From Acidithiobacillus marinus (GTDB lineage: Bacteria > Pseudomonadota > Gammaproteobacteria > Acidithiobacillales > Acidithiobacillaceae): a stretch of 61,843 nt of DNA. Position 1 is the stretch's first letter, and each line of letters begins with the position of its first letter. Where the stretch lies: NCBI RefSeq assembly GCF_002847505.1, contig NZ_MXAV01000004.1:225001-286843 (forward strand), read 5' to 3'. The position numbers and the translations under genes were made by a program. Of this stretch, positions 3-14,628 are shown one piece after another. The notes beneath the pieces are model-generated. The model did no database searches, was not told the origin of the DNA, and was given only the letters and a program-made list of their open reading frames with translations.

Positions 3-254
3 ATCAACGGCGCTTATCGTCTGGAAGTTTCCAGCCCCGGACTGGATCGACCATTGAAAACCCTGCGGGATTTTGAACGTTTTCAGGGAGAGAATGCGGA
101 AGTGCATTTGCACGGATTGCATCTGGGTCGACGTCGCCTACTGGGGGTTTTACAGGGGCTGGAGGACCAGAAAGTGGTCATTGAAAATAATGAGGGGCGC
201 TGGTTGCTAGCGCTGGATGATATACACAAGGCAAAGCTGGTACCCCAATGGTAA
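3..254 (+). CDS. rimP: Ribosome maturation factor RimP, C-terminal part (5' end outside window)
   Basis: The frame is open from the left edge and ends at TAA. The residues match the RimP middle and C-terminal region: a VSSPGLDRPL motif followed by a small beta-rich SH3-like domain ending ALDDIHKAKLVPQW. RimP acts in 30S subunit maturation. It sits 30 bp upstream of nusA, the classical proteobacterial order rimP-nusA-infB. Only about 83 residues are visible, so the true start is unknown; the identity rests on the motif plus the operon context. Confidence 0.93.
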   Translation: MNGAYRLEVSSPGLDRPLKTLRDFERFQGENAEVHLHGLHLGRRRLLGVLQGLEDQKVVIENNEGRWLLALDDIHKAKLVPQW

Positions 255-284
255 AGGGACGGATATGCAGAGAGGAGCAAGTCA

Positions 285-1766
285 ATGAGTCGTGAACTTC
301 TTTATCTGGCGGATGCCGTCGCCCATGAGAAGGATGTGGATCGGGAGGTTATTTTTCAAGCTCTGGAAGCTTCTCTGGTATCTGCGTCCAAGAAAAAATA
401 TGGGGCGGACTGGCATGTTGTGGTGGATGTAGATCGCAAGACGGGAGATTACGTCACCCGACGTCTGTGGGAAGTGGTGGCCGATGATGCGGACGAATTT
501 GATGCAGACATACACATCCGTTTGCAAGATGCTCAGGCGCTGCGCCCCGATGTAGAGCTGGGTGGATTTGTCGAGGAAGTGCTACCACCAGTCGAGTTTG
601 GTCGCATTGCCGCCCAGACCGCCAAGCAAGTGATTGTCCAGAAGGTGCGCGATGCTGAGCGTGACCGGATAGTTTCCGACTTTGCCCTGCGTAAGGGTGA
701 GATCATAAGCGGCCTCGTCAAACGTATGGAAAAAGGCAATGCCATTGTCGATATGGGCAGAGCGGAAGCATTGCTGGCCAAAGAGGAAATGATGCCGCGT
801 GAAGCCATCCGTCCCGGCGATCGGGTCAAGGCCCATCTCCAGGATGTGCGCCGGGTGCAGCGCGGTCCGCAGTTGTTCCTGTCGCGGATCAGTCCGGAAT
901 TGCTGATCAAACTGTTCGCCCAGGAAGTGCCGGAGATTGGCAACGGGATGATTGAAATTATGGGAGCTGCGCGCGATCCCGGCTTGCGTGCGAAGTTGGC
1001 GGTGCGCTCCAATGATCCCCGGGTGGATCCGGTCGGCGCTTGCGTCGGCCTGCGCGGGAATCGGGTCCAGACCGTCATCAATGAACTGAAGGGGGAACGC
1101 ATTGATATTGTCATCTGGTCTGCTGATCCGGCCAGCTATGTGATCAATGCACTGTCACCGGCAGAAGTGTCGAGTATTGTGGTGGATGAAAACACGCACA
1201 GTATGGACGTGGTGGTGGATTCTGAAAATCTCTCCCAGGCCATTGGTCGTGGTGGTCAGAACGTCCGTCTGGCGACTCAGTTGACGGGTTGGACCATCAA
1301 CATCCTGACGGAAGAAGAGGCCCAGGCCAAAAGAGATGAGGAAGATGCCAAATTCCTCAACCATTTCATTCAGGAGCTCGGGGTGGACGAGGATCTGGCG
1401 CAACTGCTGGTCAGTGAAGGTTTCACCTCCTTGGAAGAAGTCGCCTATGTGCCCGTCGCCGAAATGATCGAAATCGAAGGGCTCGACGAGGAACTCGTCG
1501 GGGAATTACGCCGGCGGGCGCGAGATGTACTTTTGAATAAAGCCATTGCCCAGGAAGAACAAGTCGCCCTCAGCCAACCCGCCGAGGATCTGCTGCAACT
1601 GAAAGGCATGGACAAGGGTCTTGCCCATTTGCTGGCCAGTAAGGGGGTGGTGACTGCCGAAGATTTGGCAGAACTAGCTGCCAGTGAACTATGCGAGATG
1701 GTCGGTATTGAAGAAGAACGGGCCAAGGCCCTGATTCTGGAGGCGCGTGCGCCCTGGTTTGCTTGA
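285..1766 (+). CDS. nusA: Transcription termination/antitermination factor NusA
   Basis: At 493 aa this is the usual length for gamma-proteobacterial NusA. An N-terminal RNA-polymerase-binding domain (about 1-125) is followed by an S1 domain (about 136-200, starting GEIISGLV), two KH domains (the second with AIGRGGQNVRLA) and two C-terminal acidic helix-hairpin-helix repeats (about 360-425 and 435-490). The tandem C-terminal repeats are the type that in E. coli contact RNAP alpha and the lambda N protein. The ATG is preceded by GAGGAG. The gene lies between rimP and infB and is probably cotranscribed with both. It modulates pausing, termination and antitermination. Confidence 0.97.
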   Translation: MSRELLYLADAVAHEKDVDREVIFQALEASLVSASKKKYGADWHVVVDVDRKTGDYVTRRLWEVVADDADEFDADIHIRLQDAQALRPDVELGGFVEEVLPPVEFGRIAAQTAKQVIVQKVRDAERDRIVSDFALRKGEIISGLVKRMEKGNAIVDMGRAEALLAKEEMMPREAIRPGDRVKAHLQDVRRVQRGPQLFLSRISPELLIKLFAQEVPEIGNGMIEIMGAARDPGLRAKLAVRSNDPRVDPVGACVGLRGNRVQTVINELKGERIDIVIWSADPASYVINALSPAEVSSIVVDENTHSMDVVVDSENLSQAIGRGGQNVRLATQLTGWTINILTEEEAQAKRDEEDAKFLNHFIQELGVDEDLAQLLVSEGFTSLEEVAYVPVAEMIEIEGLDEELVGELRRRARDVLLNKAIAQEEQVALSQPAEDLLQLKGMDKGLAHLLASKGVVTAEDLAELAASELCEMVGIEEERAKALILEARAPWFA

Positions 1767-1817
1767 TACAACCCTGTAACGCATTGTGCGAACAAGTGGT
1801 TTTGGAGAAAGAGGATT

Positions 1818-4424
1818 ATGACGGTAACTGTCGCCAATTTTGCAGCTGAATTAGGTGTAACCGATGCGCGCTTGTTGGAGCAGTTGAATGCTGCGGGCAT
1901 CAAGAAGAAAACAGCCGAGGATCCGGTCACGGAAGAGGATAAGCATCGGCTGCTGGCTTCGTTGCGCAGCGCTCATGGAGAAGGCGGGGGTGAGCTGCGG
2001 CGCATCACGCTGAATCGTACCAGCACTTCGGAAATCAAGCAGTCTGTGGGTGCGGGTAAATCGCGCACTGTACAGGTGGAAGTCCGCCGCAAACGCACCT
2101 ATGTCAAACGCGAAGTGGCCGTGGAAGAACCTGTCGAACAGGCACCGATAGCAGAACGTCCTGTTGCTGAACCAGAAAATGTGGTTGAGCAGAAAGTGCC
2201 TGAACCTGAGACCGTAGCGACTCCGGTAGAAGTGCCGGCTGTGGAAACTGCCCACGAAGCTGCGGCAACGGTAGCACCAGAGTCTGAAAAAACAGTAGCA
2301 GCTGCGGAGGTCGAGGCGCATCAGGTTGAGACTGCGCGAGCCCCGGATAACCGTTCGCGTGGCGAAGGACAGGCAGATGCTGAGCGTCCCGCTACCGGGC
2401 GTACTCCCCCTGAACGGAATCGTGCACCAGTCAATGAGCGTCCGCGTCCTGCCGTGGCAGCTCCGGCCAAGGCCCCAGCGAGTCCGCCTCGTGGCAAGAA
2501 AACCGGTCCGGCTGGGCGTAGCGATGATGACCGGGCCGGTCGGCGTGGTGTGCGCCGCAATGAGGACGGTGGCAATGCCGAAGCTCTGGCCCGTCGCCGC
2601 AAACCTGGGGACAAGAAAAACCGCAATCGTGGCGGGCAGATGGGCAATGAAGCTGTCATGGCTCCGGTCATTCGTGAAGTGGCTGTTCCGGAAACCATTA
2701 CTGTAGGTGAGTTGGCCAGCCGGATGGCGATCAAGGCCACCGATGTCATCAGGGCCATGATGAAAATGGGGGTGATGGCTACCATCAATCAGGTGATTGA
2801 CCAGGAAACGGCAGCTATTGTGGTCGAAGAATTGGGGCATAAAGTCAAAATGGTTGCCATGACCAGCCCCGAAGCCTTCCTGATGGATGAAGGTCCGTCG
2901 GAAACGCCCATCATGCTGCGCCGGCCTCCGGTAGTCACGGTGATGGGGCATGTGGATCATGGTAAAACCTCGTTGCTGGATCGTATACGATCCGCCCAGG
3001 TTGCCAGTGGCGAAGCGGGTGGGATTACACAGCATATTGGTGCCTACCATGTGGAAACGCCCAAAGGGATGGTCACCTTTCTCGATACGCCGGGTCATGA
3101 GGCGTTTACGGCCATGCGTGCCCGTGGTGCCCAGGCCACAGATATTGTGATATTGGTGGTGGCCGCTGATGATGGCGTCATGCCCCAAACCATTGAAGCC
3201 ATTCACCATGCTAAAGCGGCACAGGTACCCATCGTGGTGGCGGTCAACAAGATCGACAAGCCGGGTGTGGATCCCGAGCGTATTCGTCAGGAACTGGCGG
3301 GTCACGAGGTGGTTCCCGAAGAATGGGGTGGTGATACCCAGTTTGTGAATGTGTCGGCCAAGGCGGGTCTGCATATCGATGACCTGCTGGACGCCATTTT
3401 GCTGCAGGCGGAAATGCTGGAATTGGATGTGCAGAGTAATGGTCCCGCCAAGGGCGTGGTCATCGAATCGCGTCTGGATCGTGGACGTGGCGTGGTGGCC
3501 ACTGTGTTGGTCCGGCAGGGAACCCTGCATGCCGGCGATATGCTCCTGGCCGGGGCTCAGTTCGGGCGTATCAAGGCATTGGTCAACGATGCCGGGCAGA
3601 ATACCCAGGATGTCGGCCCTGGTTTGCCAGCTGAAGTCCTCGGCCTCAGCGATGTTCCTCATGCGGGCGACGAGGTCGTGGTCGTGGCCGACGAACGCAA
3701 GGCCCGGGAAGTGGCATTGTTCCGGCAGGGCAAGTTCCGCGATGTGCGGCTGGCCAAAAACCAGAAGGCATCGCTGGAAAGTCTCTTCGAAGCGGCCGCA
3801 GATGGTCAGTTGCAGCAGTTGAACCTGTTGATCAAGGCCGACGTGCAAGGTTCGGTGGAGGCCTTGACCACGACGCTGGAACGCCTTTCTACCTCCGAAG
3901 TGAAAGTTACGGTCATCCATTCGGGGGTCGGAGGCATTACAGAATCGGACGTGAATCTGGCGGCCGCATCCCAGGCGGTGGTTATCGGTTTCAACGTCCG
4001 GGCCGAAGCCCAGGCGCGGCGGCTCATTGAAAGTACCGGTGTGGACGTCCGTTATCACAGCGTCATTTATGACGCAGTGGATGAAGTCAAGGCAGCCATG
4101 AGCGGGATGCTGGCTCCGGAAATTCGTGAAAAAATCATAGGTCATGCCGAAGTGCGGGAAACCTTCCGGGTTCCCAAGGTGGGAACCATTGCCGGGTGTA
4201 TGGTGACTGATGGTGTGGTGCGGCGCAATGCCAAGGTCCGGGTGCTGCGTCAGGATGTGGTGATTCACAGCGGTGAAATGGATTCGCTGCGCCGCTTCAA
4301 AGACGACGCCAAGGAAGTCCGGGAGGGTTTCGAGTGCGGTATCGGTCTGCGCAATTTCAATGACCTCAAGAACGGAGACGTGATTGAGGCCTTCGAAACC
4401 ACTGAAGTCGCGCGTACGGTCTAG
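1818..4424 (+). CDS. infB: Translation initiation factor IF-2
   Basis: An 868-aa GTPase that places initiator fMet-tRNA on the 30S subunit. An N-terminal IF2-N fold (about 1-50) is followed by a long, charged, low-complexity linker rich in Glu/Val/Pro/Ala and then Arg (about 70-285). A second IF2-N domain precedes the G domain, whose G1 motif GHVDHGKT is near residues 377-384, with DTPGHEAF and NKIDKPG following. Domains II, III and C2 complete the protein. A GGAGAAAGAGG ribosome-binding site lies just before the ATG. It is 51 bp from nusA and 3 bp from rbfA. The linker is lineage-variable, as usual in IF-2. Confidence 0.98.
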
Positions 4425-11615: not shown

Positions 11616-12331
11616 TGCTGGACACCGAAACCACCGGAATTGACTGGAAACAGGGGCATCGGGTGATTGAAATCGGCGCCGTGGAGTTGATCGACCGGCG
11701 CCTGACCGGAAACAATTACCAGCAGTATCTCAACCCCCAGCGCAGTAGTGATCCCGAGGCGCTGCGCGTGCATGGACTCAGCGATGATTTTCTGGAGGAT
11801 AAGCCCCTGTTTGCTGAAGTGGCTGATGCTTTTCTGGAATATCTGGGAGAGGCGGAATTGATCATTCACAATGCCCCCTTTGATCTGGGCTTTCTCAATC
11901 ATGAGCTGGCGCTCGTGAAAAAAGCCCCCCTCAGTCACAAGGTGATGGATACCTTGCTGGATGCCCGACGTCGTCATCCCGGACAGAAAAATGATCTGAA
12001 CAGTCTGTGTCGTCGCTATAACGTCGATAACAGCCACCGTGAACTGCATGGCGCCTTGCTGGATTGCGAAATTCTTGCCCTGGTGTATCTCGGCATGACC
12101 GGAGGGCAGGTGGATATGATGGGTCTCTTGAGTGGCAGTGATGCCCAGTCTGGAACGGAAGCCAATGCGATGACGTCGGCACCTCTTCCCGATGCGGCAG
12201 GGAGTCATGTTGCTGGTATGGTGGCGGTGCGGCGGGGACTGAGGGTGATCATGGCCAGTGCCGAAGAATCCACACTGCACACACAATATTTGCAGCGTCT
12301 GGGTGAAAAAGCCCTATGGCATGAGGATTAA
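11597..12331 (+). CDS. dnaQ: DNA polymerase III epsilon subunit (3'-5' proofreading exonuclease)
   Basis: A 244-aa DEDDh exonuclease. ExoI is VLDTETTGID (Asp9, Glu11), ExoII is IIHNAPFDLGFLNHEL, and ExoIII is SHRELHGALLDCEILALVYLGMTGGQ with the catalytic His. The C-terminal tail after about residue 185 is the expected polymerase-alpha-binding region. The ATG lies inside rnhA. It proofreads within the Pol III core with alpha and theta. It is the last native gene before the inserted element at 12399. Confidence 0.96.
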   Translation: MALRQIVLDTETTGIDWKQGHRVIEIGAVELIDRRLTGNNYQQYLNPQRSSDPEALRVHGLSDDFLEDKPLFAEVADAFLEYLGEAELIIHNAPFDLGFLNHELALVKKAPLSHKVMDTLLDARRRHPGQKNDLNSLCRRYNVDNSHRELHGALLDCEILALVYLGMTGGQVDMMGLLSGSDAQSGTEANAMTSAPLPDAAGSHVAGMVAVRRGLRVIMASAEESTLHTQYLQRLGEKALWHED

Positions 12332-12393
12332 AAATAAGCCGTGAGCGGACTTTTTGATCAGGCCCGCTGCTGCTTGCTCGGATCAGGCTGGAT

Positions 12394-12398
12394 GCTCG
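12394..12398 (+). repeat. Left target-site duplication GCTCG
   Basis: GCTCG directly precedes the TG end of the element and is repeated directly after its CA end at 14232-14236. Removing the element plus one copy joins the dnaQ downstream region to the gloA 3' end. Confidence 0.8.
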
Positions 12399-12424
12399 TG
12401 TTAACGGACAAAATAGTATCATCC
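12399..12424 (+). repeat. Left terminal inverted repeat
   Basis: 26 bp, beginning TGTTAACGGACAAAAT and ending ATCATCC. It matches the complement of 14206-14231 except at positions 16 and 20. Confidence 0.8.
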
Positions 12425-12754
12425 GGGCTTCTCGCGGAGTCCCCAGGATTTCTGCTACGCGACGTGCTCCTTATCCCCATTGGCAGGTAAGCTGCAACTT
12501 CAGTCATTCGTTATTGGGCGTGTCACGGTTGGCATATATCAAGGTCGCCTACACCATCATGAATCATTGTGACGGCGTGCTCCGCTGGTTCGAAAGCCAG
12601 ATCACCAATGGGATTATTAAAGCTTCAATAGCCTCATCCAATCCGCCAAGGTCAAAGCTTGGGGCTATCGCACGCAGAAGAATGTTATTAACATGGCAAT
12701 CTGATTCTGGGTAAGCTGGATCTCAGGCTACCCACTTGAAACAGCGAGGAACAA
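12425..12754 (+). pseudogene. ISL3-family transposase relic (C-terminal fragment, frameshifted)
   Basis: From 12514 the frame reads RLAYIKVAYTIMNHCDGVLRWF, then ESQITNGII, a typical ISL3 transposase C-terminal segment. The reading then needs a shift to continue FNSLIQSAKVKAWGYRTQKN and a second shift to give NLILGKLDLRLPT before TGA at 12737-12739, the usual family C-terminus. At least two frameshifts and loss of about the first 85% of the protein make it a pseudogene. GGGCTTCTCGCGGAG at 12425 and GAAACAGCGAGGAAC at 12738-12752 are loosely inverted and may be remnants of the ISL3 ends. Confidence 0.7.
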
Positions 12755-12965
12755 AAAATTTGATGTTTATATTTTAGTCCATAGAGTTACGAAGCGTTAT
12801 AGCACTCCATAGGTGGCAAATGTTTGGTGCTGAGGCATGGTCAATGGCTGACGCTGATTTACATCCATAACGAACGAACGATATTGGGTTGCCGGAAGAC
12901 TGAGGAGACGATGAACCTGATGAGGGAAGCGAAGTTCACACACAATCTTGAGAAAAGGCATATTG
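12740..12965. other. Non-coding stretch inside the element upstream of the membrane-protein gene
   Basis: Base composition drops here, starting with an A/T-rich run (AAAAAATTTGATGTTTATATTTTAG). No convincing coding frame, RNA gene or terminator is visible. It should hold the promoter for the gene at 12966, but I cannot single out a -35/-10 pair with confidence. Confidence 0.5.
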
Positions 12966-13904
12966 ATGCGTGGAATTAGGAAGTTGTATGGAATAACGCG
13001 CCTCAACTCGATCGGCGTGATTTATCGAGAAACGAGGAAGTTCATCGCCAATAAGGATAATAGTTTTGTTTTTTCAATGATTGCAATTATTTTATCTGTA
13101 GTCAGCATTGTGTATTCCATTTACCAAGGAAATGTAGATATTAGTCATGAAAGATATGAACTTTGGACGCATGTTAATAGCTCGTTGGAGCGACAGGAGG
13201 ATTTAGATCTAGAAATTTACCCGTTGCTCTTTAACCGAATCGTGCAATCAAAGGCAGTGTTACTTGGAATCCATGGAGATGAACTTAAGTGTTCCTATCT
13301 TGTAAATCTTAGAAGGAATAATTTGAGTCTCAAAAGGATGCTATACTACAACGTAAAGAATGCGTCCTTGGTAAGGCTTGAGAATAGCGAGCAATATGGA
13401 TTGCAGGATGTTATATTAGAAAATGGAAGTCTAGCGGATGCCCTATCTGTTAATGGATGGATTCGCTTTCTTAAAGCTGATAACTATTCTAACAAATGGT
13501 GGACTTCTCTAAGCTGGGACACGATGCAACTCGGATTCTTCCCAAGACAATGGGCCTATAAATGCACTGGCACTCGCCCTGGCAAGAAAAAGGTCGTTAA
13601 AATAAAAATTTCATCCCAATCTCTCCGAAAATTTAAGGCAGACCTACAAGCGGCAATTCTTGATGACACATATATTCAAGATCGCTTGACTCCGAATGTA
13701 GCTGCTTTAAAGAATCTTGAGGCAGAAAATATGCCAAGCCCACATGAAGAGTATGGAAGTTTAGGCTCCGTCTTTGGCCCTTTAAATAAAGGCAATGCTA
13801 AAAATGATAGCCCTCTAAAAATAATGAATTATGCAACCAGCGTTCTGAATGATATTCTAGCGAGCGTATATGCGAAAGAGGCAGTTGCCACAGGGCAACG
13901 ATAA
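12966..13904 (+). CDS. Unknown protein with one N-terminal transmembrane segment (element cargo)
   Basis: I do not recognise this 312-aa protein. A basic N-terminus (about 1-30) is followed by one hydrophobic helix at about 34-54 (FVFSMIAIILSVVSIVYSIY) and a roughly 255-residue mostly soluble region, with a Lys-rich patch near 215-230. The pattern suggests a membrane-anchored protein with a large domain on one side. I chose ATG 12966, with GAAAAGG 8 bp before it; TTG 12948 would add six residues. Codons are A/T-rich (AAT, ATA, TTA), unlike the flanking genes, indicating separate ancestry. It is the only intact gene between the element's terminal repeats. A defence, immunity or surface role is possible but unsupported. 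Confidence 0.75.
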   Translation: MRGIRKLYGITRLNSIGVIYRETRKFIANKDNSFVFSMIAIILSVVSIVYSIYQGNVDISHERYELWTHVNSSLERQEDLDLEIYPLLFNRIVQSKAVLLGIHGDELKCSYLVNLRRNNLSLKRMLYYNVKNASLVRLENSEQYGLQDVILENGSLADALSVNGWIRFLKADNYSNKWWTSLSWDTMQLGFFPRQWAYKCTGTRPGKKKVVKIKISSQSLRKFKADLQAAILDDTYIQDRLTPNVAALKNLEAENMPSPHEEYGSLGSVFGPLNKGNAKNDSPLKIMNYATSVLNDILASVYAKEAVATGQR

Positions 13905-14185
13905 GGTGCCCTTCCGTGGTGACCTTGCGCCTCCACCACTTACGAGATTCACAGTGATAGTACCACAGCCCCGTTAGAACAGCGCGGAATTCACGGTCCC
14001 AGTTTAGAATGACCGCTACCAGTCTTTACCCGTCATTGGTGGTTTCGGAACGTGCCTAGCGAAAATGACGAATCATCATCATTTAGGAATGCTCCACCAA
14101 GGTCAGATGCACCGGCACAAGCTTTGCCGCTGAAACAGGGCCGCCGACCATTGCCAGACCAACTTACTTCAGAGCCGAAAACTCA
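13905..14185. other. Non-coding right arm of the element
   Basis: Base composition returns toward that of the chromosome. A weak open frame at 14052-14261 runs through the right terminal repeat into gloA and is probably not a gene. No RNA or transposase remnant was recognised. Confidence 0.5.
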
Positions 14186-14203
14186 GGATGAAACTATTTT
14201 GTC
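14186..14203 (-). repeat. Subterminal repeat near the right end
   Basis: Read on the minus strand it is GACAAAATAGTTTCATCC, a 17/18 match to positions 9-26 of the left end. It is a tandem copy of the right terminal repeat, offset by 20 bp. Such repeats commonly serve as extra transposase sites in IS21-type ends. Confidence 0.7.
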
Positions 14204-14205
14204 GA

Positions 14206-14231
14206 GGATGAGACTTTTTTGTCCGTTAACA
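14206..14231 (-). repeat. Right terminal inverted repeat
   Basis: 26 bp; on the minus strand it begins TGTTAACGGACAAAAAAG and ends CTCATCC. It matches the left end at 24 of 26 positions. Confidence 0.8.
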
Positions 14232-14236
14232 GCTCG
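14232..14236 (+). repeat. Right target-site duplication GCTCG
   Basis: Direct repeat of 12394-12398, touching the CA end of the element and lying only 5 bp beyond the gloA stop codon. Confidence 0.8.
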
Positions 14237-14241
14237 GCAAG

Positions 14242-14628
14242 CTAGCTTTTATGCTCAATGAGTTCGATGCGATAGCCATCAGGATCTTCGACAAAGGCGA
14301 TGATGGTGCTGCCATGCTTCATGGGCCCGGCTTCACGCACTACCTTGCCCCCTCTGGCGCGGATGGCATCACAGGCGGAAGCCGCATTGTCCACTTCCAG
14401 GGCAATATGCCCGAAGCCTGTGCCGAGATCATAGTGATCTACGCCCCAGTTATAGGTGAGTTCGATGACGGCCCCGGCGTTCTCCTCTTGGTAGCCCACA
14501 AAGGCGAGAGTGAATTTACCCTCAGAGTAATCCTTGCGGCGCAACAGGCGCATACCCAACACTTCGGTGTAAAACTGGATGGCGCGATCCATATCGCCCA
14601 CCCGCAGCATGGTGTGTAAAAGACGCAT
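14242..14628 (-). CDS. gloA: Lactoylglutathione lyase (glyoxalase I)
   Basis: Converts the methylglyoxal-glutathione hemithioacetal to S-lactoylglutathione, the substrate of GloB at 9489-10238. It is a 128-aa VOC-fold protein of normal bacterial length. Metal ligands fit His5 (LLHTMLRV), the Glu in VIELTYNWG, the His in GFGHIALEV and the Glu in YRIELIEHK. It starts 38 bp after argG and may be the last gene of the lysC-argDFG transcript. The foreign element lies immediately past its stop. Confidence 0.95.

Follow-up and report, generated by a model that had tools for sequence, protein, structure and literature searches.

The 1,833-bp segment at positions 12399–14231 of the window (the whole 61,843-nt stretch of Acidithiobacillus marinus DNA under analysis) is bounded by transposon ends of the Tn7 type, and we consider it probable, with some reservation, that it represents a non-autonomous transposon which was moved in trans. 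As judged from the sequence, the assignment of the ends is regarded as settled, because the terminus is linked to tnsA, tnsB, tnsC, and tnsD and to glmS, and because it is accompanied by spaced 17-bp repeats. The unit shares its termini and repeats with other Tn7-type ends, is flanked by a 5-bp target duplication, and resides in a genome which also carries tns genes. We infer that the unit was already short when it transposed, with Tns proteins acting on it in trans, and that a target selector was used.

The inverted ends comprise 26 nt each and are complementary at 24 of 26 positions (92%), with TG...CA at their extremities. The left terminus (12399–12424, forward strand) reads TGTTAACGGACAAAATAGTATCATCC and contains one TnsB-type 17-bp repeat (12408–12424, 17/17 matches). 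The right terminus (14206–14231, reverse strand) reads TGTTAACGGACAAAAAAGTCTCATCC and contains the first right-end repeat (14206–14222, 16/17 matches); the second one is found at 14186–14202 (reverse strand, 17/17 matches). In the left subterminal region (12425–12538), there is no further 17-bp repeat with at least 12/17 matches. The pentamer GCTCG is present directly outside both termini (12394–12398 and 14232–14236) and represents the target duplication. The ends had been described in this way in an earlier note on this DNA (24/26 inverted repeats with TG...CA termini, a second copy on the right, and GCTCG on both sides), and each of these points was confirmed from the sequence. As a control, 200 dinucleotide shuffles of positions 12200–14500 were searched for inverted 26-mers whose arms were separated by 200 nt or more. 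The best pair from the shuffles matched at 21/26 positions, and 24/26 was reached in 0/200.

The unit is located between two genes. On its left is the stop codon of a gene for a 3'-exonuclease (dnaQ-like), and on its right a glyoxalase gene (gloA-like) ends which is read in the convergent direction, both names being based on reading of the proteins rather than on a family scan. While a match to the glyoxalase was obtained in 17/17 genomes searched from the genus, the left flank was matched at the DNA level in only two of these 17, the own genome and its sister genome G009. In G009, the exonuclease and glyoxalase genes are adjacent and the insert is absent. When aligned with one copy of the duplication kept, the own flanks read ...GATCAGGCTGGATGCTCGGCAAGCTAGC... 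as compared to ...GATCAGGCCGGATGTTCGGCAAACTCGC... in G009. The empty site thus has a single 5-bp copy, GTTCG, which is one base off GCTCG. An empty dnaQ–gloA site with a single pentamer had been predicted in the earlier note, and it is found in G009 in this slightly different form. Because the site is empty and carries a single 5-bp copy in G009, the insertion most likely postdates the split from that genome, as far as can be read from the alignment.

For the search in the own genome, the exact 15-base terminus pattern TGTTAACGGACAAAA was used. Four exact matches were obtained, namely both ends of the unit, C49, and C52. Only exact matches were considered, because with up to two mismatches the reversed control equals the signal (9 matches for the pattern vs. 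10 for the control). The 17-bp repeat, searched with up to two mismatches, is more specific, with 14 matches versus 2 for the reversed pattern. The assignment of the ends relies on the four exact matches, on these repeats, and on the longer 26-base pattern described below.

Inward of the terminus on C49 is a set of tns genes. These code for a 292-aa TnsA with both domains (PF08721/PF08722), a 722-aa TnsB (470.7 bits to TnsB from Tn7, 7pik), a 552-aa TnsC (PF05621) with TniB and AAA domains, and TnsD (PF15978, E 1.1e-103), for which a frame of 622 codons is open back to the end of tnsC. The names of TnsA, TnsB, and TnsC are based on Pfam and PDB matches; NCBIfam had no match for these three proteins. 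A 561-aa ORF follows tnsD. It has no match in Pfam, NCBIfam, or PDB and is, for this reason, not called TnsE. TnsB is present in the own genome in one copy, with its frame open and together with TnsA, TnsC, and TnsD on C49.

Outside the window, a single left end was found in the own genome, on C48. Here, repeats begin at 10, 75 (12/17 matches), and 132; in the right end on C49, they begin at 10, 30, 50, and 70. The flank of the C48 left end, ATTCT, is identical to the flank of the C49 right end. Because of this identity, and because there is only this one other left end, C48 and C49 are treated as the two sides of one element. We read them as a complete-looking tnsABCD element, with the reservation that the link between the two contigs consists of their matching 5-bp flanks. 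On the interior side of its tns genes, large repetitive ORFs of 3,220 and 1,074 aa were observed (L062, 53–9715 and 9890–13114), with long alanine–proline runs and C-termini which, by eye, resemble those of autotransporters.

On C52, the terminus starts 24 bp after the stop codon of glmS (L021, 5747–5904; glmS was named by reading of the protein). A corresponding relic in G009 (C5; L066 from 4733) also begins 24 bp after glmS and has the same flank, TGAGT. Both glmS-side copies are decayed, and they probably go back to one old shared insertion.

The interior of the unit is a composite. The left subterminal region (12425–12538, forward strand) is weakly related to a left end from G004 (L081), with an alignment score of 22.0; its own 300 shuffles did not exceed 18.5, but the shuffle sets of other ends reached up to 21.5. 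It is followed by what is left of a transposase gene from the ISL3 family, namely its 3' end (12539–12752, forward strand). Matches to this relic with 85–86% sequence identity are present at 17 places of the own genome, and plasmid-borne ISAtc3 matches it at 88%. Two interior ORFs were compared to Pfam: the cargo ORF had no match, and the ORF in the relic matched DDE_Tnp_ISL3 weakly (E 0.015, under the family cut-off). The rest of the interior was read by eye. Next is a 110-bp remnant (12754–12863, forward strand) of a longer repeat (about 165 bp) from several Acidithiobacillus relatives, with mostly 89–97% sequence identity among the matches listed and 91–95% in five copies compared. Longer copies of this repeat have TGTCAA...TTGACA ends and occur in several Acidithiobacillus genomes (L083, L085, L088); it may be a separate MITE. 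The right subterminal region (14008–14185, reverse strand) is common to the glmS-side relic on C52 and to G009. The right end including the terminus shows 91–92% sequence identity over 158–162 bp to the C52 relic; regions from G009 match at 73.7% (232 bp) and 78% (155 bp). The alignment score of the right end is 90 against C52 and 12 against C49, a value within the shuffles for C49, and beyond the repeats it has no resemblance to the C49 right end.

No TnsA, TnsB, or TnsC was detected within 12399–14231 at E<1e-3. When the limit was relaxed to E<=1 and the fifth ORF and a portion of TnsD were used as queries along with TnsA–C, there were three short matches (E 0.13 over 24 aa, E 0.16 over 27 aa, and E 0.37 over 11 aa), which are taken as noise. 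The core genes by which an autonomous Tn7-type element is recognized, tnsB and tnsC, were not found inside the unit. No second whole copy of the 1,833-bp unit was found in the own genome, nor among the matches listed for the genus. Eleven plasmid records were matched, none of them covering 80% of the unit, and the best place of each consists of the ISL3 relic only.

The cargo gene (12966–13904, forward strand) codes for a protein of 312 aa when started from ATG, or of 318 aa when started from TTG at 12948. It has a GC content of 39.7%, and the protein has one clear hydrophobic segment near residues 34–52, which is likely to be a membrane segment. This agrees with the earlier characterization of the only intact gene inside as coding for a low-GC protein with one transmembrane segment. 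The protein has no match in Pfam, PADLOC, or NCBIfam. Its two matches in PHROGs are weak (E 0.13 and 0.19), with no family above noise, and a PDB sequence search returned E 1.7 at best. When homologs were searched, one genome was matched among 57 relatives and one among 369 genomes of the class (the two sets overlap), in both cases the own copy. Plasmids and phages yielded none, and neither did genome_contigs and viral_contigs, in which a query consisting of one protein can find only close relatives. An AlphaFold2 model computed from the single sequence was uninformative (mean pLDDT 32.2). A role typical for Tn7 cargo, such as defense, is only a guess.

With up to two mismatches, the 26-base terminus pattern matches in 15/17 genomes of the genus, internal repeats being included in these matches, and the reversed pattern gave 0 matches in all 17. 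For the pairing of ends, the window and 27 loci picked from the matches, rather than all end matches, were used. This resulted in nine pairs within the same locus: four with exact 5-bp duplications, including the pair from the window, one with one mismatch, and four with 3–4 mismatches. Exact duplications flank three units without tnsB in other genomes. Two of these are MITE-sized: one of 207 bp in G001 (L134, 854–1060; AACGG) and one of 258 bp in G007 (L138, 451–708; GAATC). Sequences related to the latter along most of its length (79–82% sequence identity) are present at two places in G016 and at one place in G002. The third, of 2,511 bp, is located directly after glmS in G008 (L071, C137, 8994–11504; GGAGC) and carries a truncated tnsA and, as cargo, a gene for an AhpC/1-Cys peroxiredoxin. 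The duplication with one mismatch belongs to a pair in G002 (1,620 bp), and those with 3–4 mismatches to pairs in G001 (5,092 bp), G003 (5,885 bp), G010 (14,435 bp), and G016 (282 bp). Three further pairs extend over two loci: C48/C49 from the own genome (ATTCT, exact), a tns-bearing pair of 31 kb in G007 (CTTCC, exact), and a pair of 25 kb in G013, the flanks of which do not match (GATGG vs. CGACT). Relatives of TnsB at E<=1e-10 are present in 9/17 genomes, some of them distant (26–40% sequence identity), with one in the own genome and none in G009.

In genome_contigs, the exact pattern was found in 33 stretches, of which 26 are titled Acidithiobacillus and seven are MAG contigs. A Tns match is present in 6/33 of these stretches (up to 8 kb each), which is not a count of tns-less units because left ends stand far from tns genes. 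The MAG contigs are assigned to Proteobacteria (4), Rhodobacteraceae, Acidiphilium, and Bacillota; the stretches from the last three (L161, L171, L181) have no Tns match within them. The occurrence of 26-base ends in these three MAGs may be due to transfer or to mis-binning.

Two arrangements at other ends were observed. In G009 (C17; L065, 8065–13492), a Tn7-type right end adjoins three consecutive genes which, by eye, resemble those for tyrosine recombinases; res/mod-like genes are located at 77–4195 and signaling-like genes on the outer side. In G004, outward-facing Tn7-type ends are separated by exactly 5 bp at two loci (C94, L067 5614–5620; C31, L143 1634–1640). These may be either adjacent elements with a common duplication or a joined-end form.

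It may be asked if the ends belong to a mobile element at all and, if so, to which type. The 15-base terminus is weakly specific at two mismatches, and this could be taken as an indication that the unit is a chance inverted repeat with chance flanking pentamers, for which no other support is known. Such an origin is exceedingly improbable in view of the shuffle result, the empty site in G009, and the 26-base pattern, which 15/17 genomes contain as opposed to none for its reversal, and was rejected on these grounds. The earlier note had proposed either a decayed IS21-type insertion or a non-autonomous unit which is helped by a relative elsewhere in the genome. IS21 elements also show TG...CA ends with several end repeats, and the repeat at 12754–12863 has comparable extremities in its longer copies, although this repeat lies inside the unit and is distinct from its ends. 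Elsewhere in the own genome, the terminus adjoins tnsA, tnsB, tnsC, and tnsD in one case and glmS in another, and the right-end array with its 20-bp spacing is Tn7-like. Membership in IS21, to which we assign hardly any probability, was rejected based on the linkage of the ends to tns genes (C49) and to glmS (C52). The genome search for similar ends that had been suggested was successful (C49, C52, and C48), and the exact termini on C49 and C52 stand beside tns genes and after glmS, respectively. The other proposal, a unit which depends on a relative, fared better: the sequence data support it, since similar ends appear to bound a complete-looking tnsABCD element in the same genome and since the expected empty site is present in G009.

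A more serious contender is that a full-length Tn7-type element inserted at the dnaQ–gloA site and decayed in place, its tns genes and the greater part of its cargo being removed by IS-mediated deletions, so that the short form never moved. This is a realistic possibility, even if not the one that we favor. It would account for the two IS/repeat relics inside the unit, which indicate decay, and for the left end with its one repeat only; also, the glmS-side copies in the own genome (C52) and in G009 (C5) are decayed. On the other hand, the unit has kept its two termini and the duplication in intact form, the searches detected no remnant of a tns gene inside it, and the genus also contains short units with exact duplications, including two of MITE size.

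The reading that we favor, a non-autonomous unit moved in trans, would involve the following steps. The unit would have derived from a longer Tn7-type element which lost its tns genes, was subject to IS traffic, and kept one orphan gene for a membrane protein. TnsB, supplied by a complete Tn7-type element that is, or once was, present elsewhere, would recognize the 17-bp repeats in both ends; TnsB and TnsA would cut the unit out, and TnsC together with a target selector would insert it between dnaQ and gloA, leaving the 5-bp duplication. As this target differs from the glmS site, either another route of targeting or a relaxed selection of the target is implied. Because the unit has one left and two right repeats as compared to three and four in the complete element, its present mobility may be weak. 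The sub-type of the right end matches the relic on C52 rather than C49, so that the helper may have been an element which is now lost, a possibility with which the short end arrays are also compatible.

Non-autonomous derivatives of transposons are a known idea, and CRISPR-guided transposons arose from Tn7-type elements. In open-licence literature, as far as covered by titles and the beginnings of abstracts, we recognized no description of natural Tn7-type units without tns genes, be it with cargo or MITE-sized. Tn7-like elements are already known in Acidithiobacillus (PMC2621215, PMC10322971). In a survey of 6,549 Tn7-like transposons, tnsB was a minimal requirement, and tns-less units with Tn7-type ends would be absent from the survey for this reason; the same publication reports that Tn7-type elements carry defense and other cargo genes (PMC8649781). 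We tentatively suggest, as an idea which may well turn out to be wrong, that the Tn7-type elements in Acidithiobacillus form a population with several layers (complete tnsABCD elements, cargo units without tnsB, and MITE-sized units), the members of which have similar ends and are cross-mobilized by Tns proteins in trans, that the flow of cargo exceeds that seen by surveys anchored on tnsB, and that the unit from the window is a working carrier of a membrane protein whose role is one typical of Tn7 cargo, such as defense. Provided that such units do move in trans, some of the Tn7-borne gene flow has so far gone uncounted. Acidithiobacillus, with complete elements and short units having similar ends, would then be well suited for testing.

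The Tn7 terminus reads TGTGGGCGGACAAAATAGT. As described in PMC8649781, the ends of Tn7 have three left and four right repeats, and the complete relative, C48/C49, has the same 3 + 4 set. TnsB from C49 is homologous to that from Tn7 over residues 50–704. Tn7 is also resembled in the 5-bp duplications and in the location of relics just after glmS. The unit from the window differs from Tn7 in that it lacks tns genes and is not located at glmS; when compared to the asymmetric 3 + 4 arrays, repeats are present in its ends but are few (1 + 2). A closer comparison is offered by Tn5468 from the same genus. In A. ferrooxidans, two copies of Tn5468 with tnsABCD and orf5 have been reported, one of them near glmS (PMC2621215), and C49 from the own genome likewise carries tnsABCD followed by the 561-aa ORF. 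In contrast to Tn5468, the unit has no detectable tns gene, a size of 1.8 kb, a location at dnaQ–gloA, and fewer end repeats. The ISL3 family (ISAtc1, ISAtc3, ISTfe1) is represented inside the unit by the 3' portion of one of its transposase genes at 12539–12752, but only about 214 bp of the gene are left, and the outer ends are not from ISL3. Tn3-derived TIMEs (PMC4133298) are one example of non-autonomous derivatives of bacterial transposons. As in MITEs and TIMEs, the ends have been kept, the transposase is gone, and help in trans is presumed. The difference is that the helper would here consist of the separate Tn7-type proteins TnsA, TnsB, and TnsC together with a target selector, and that the unit from the window keeps a protein-coding cargo.
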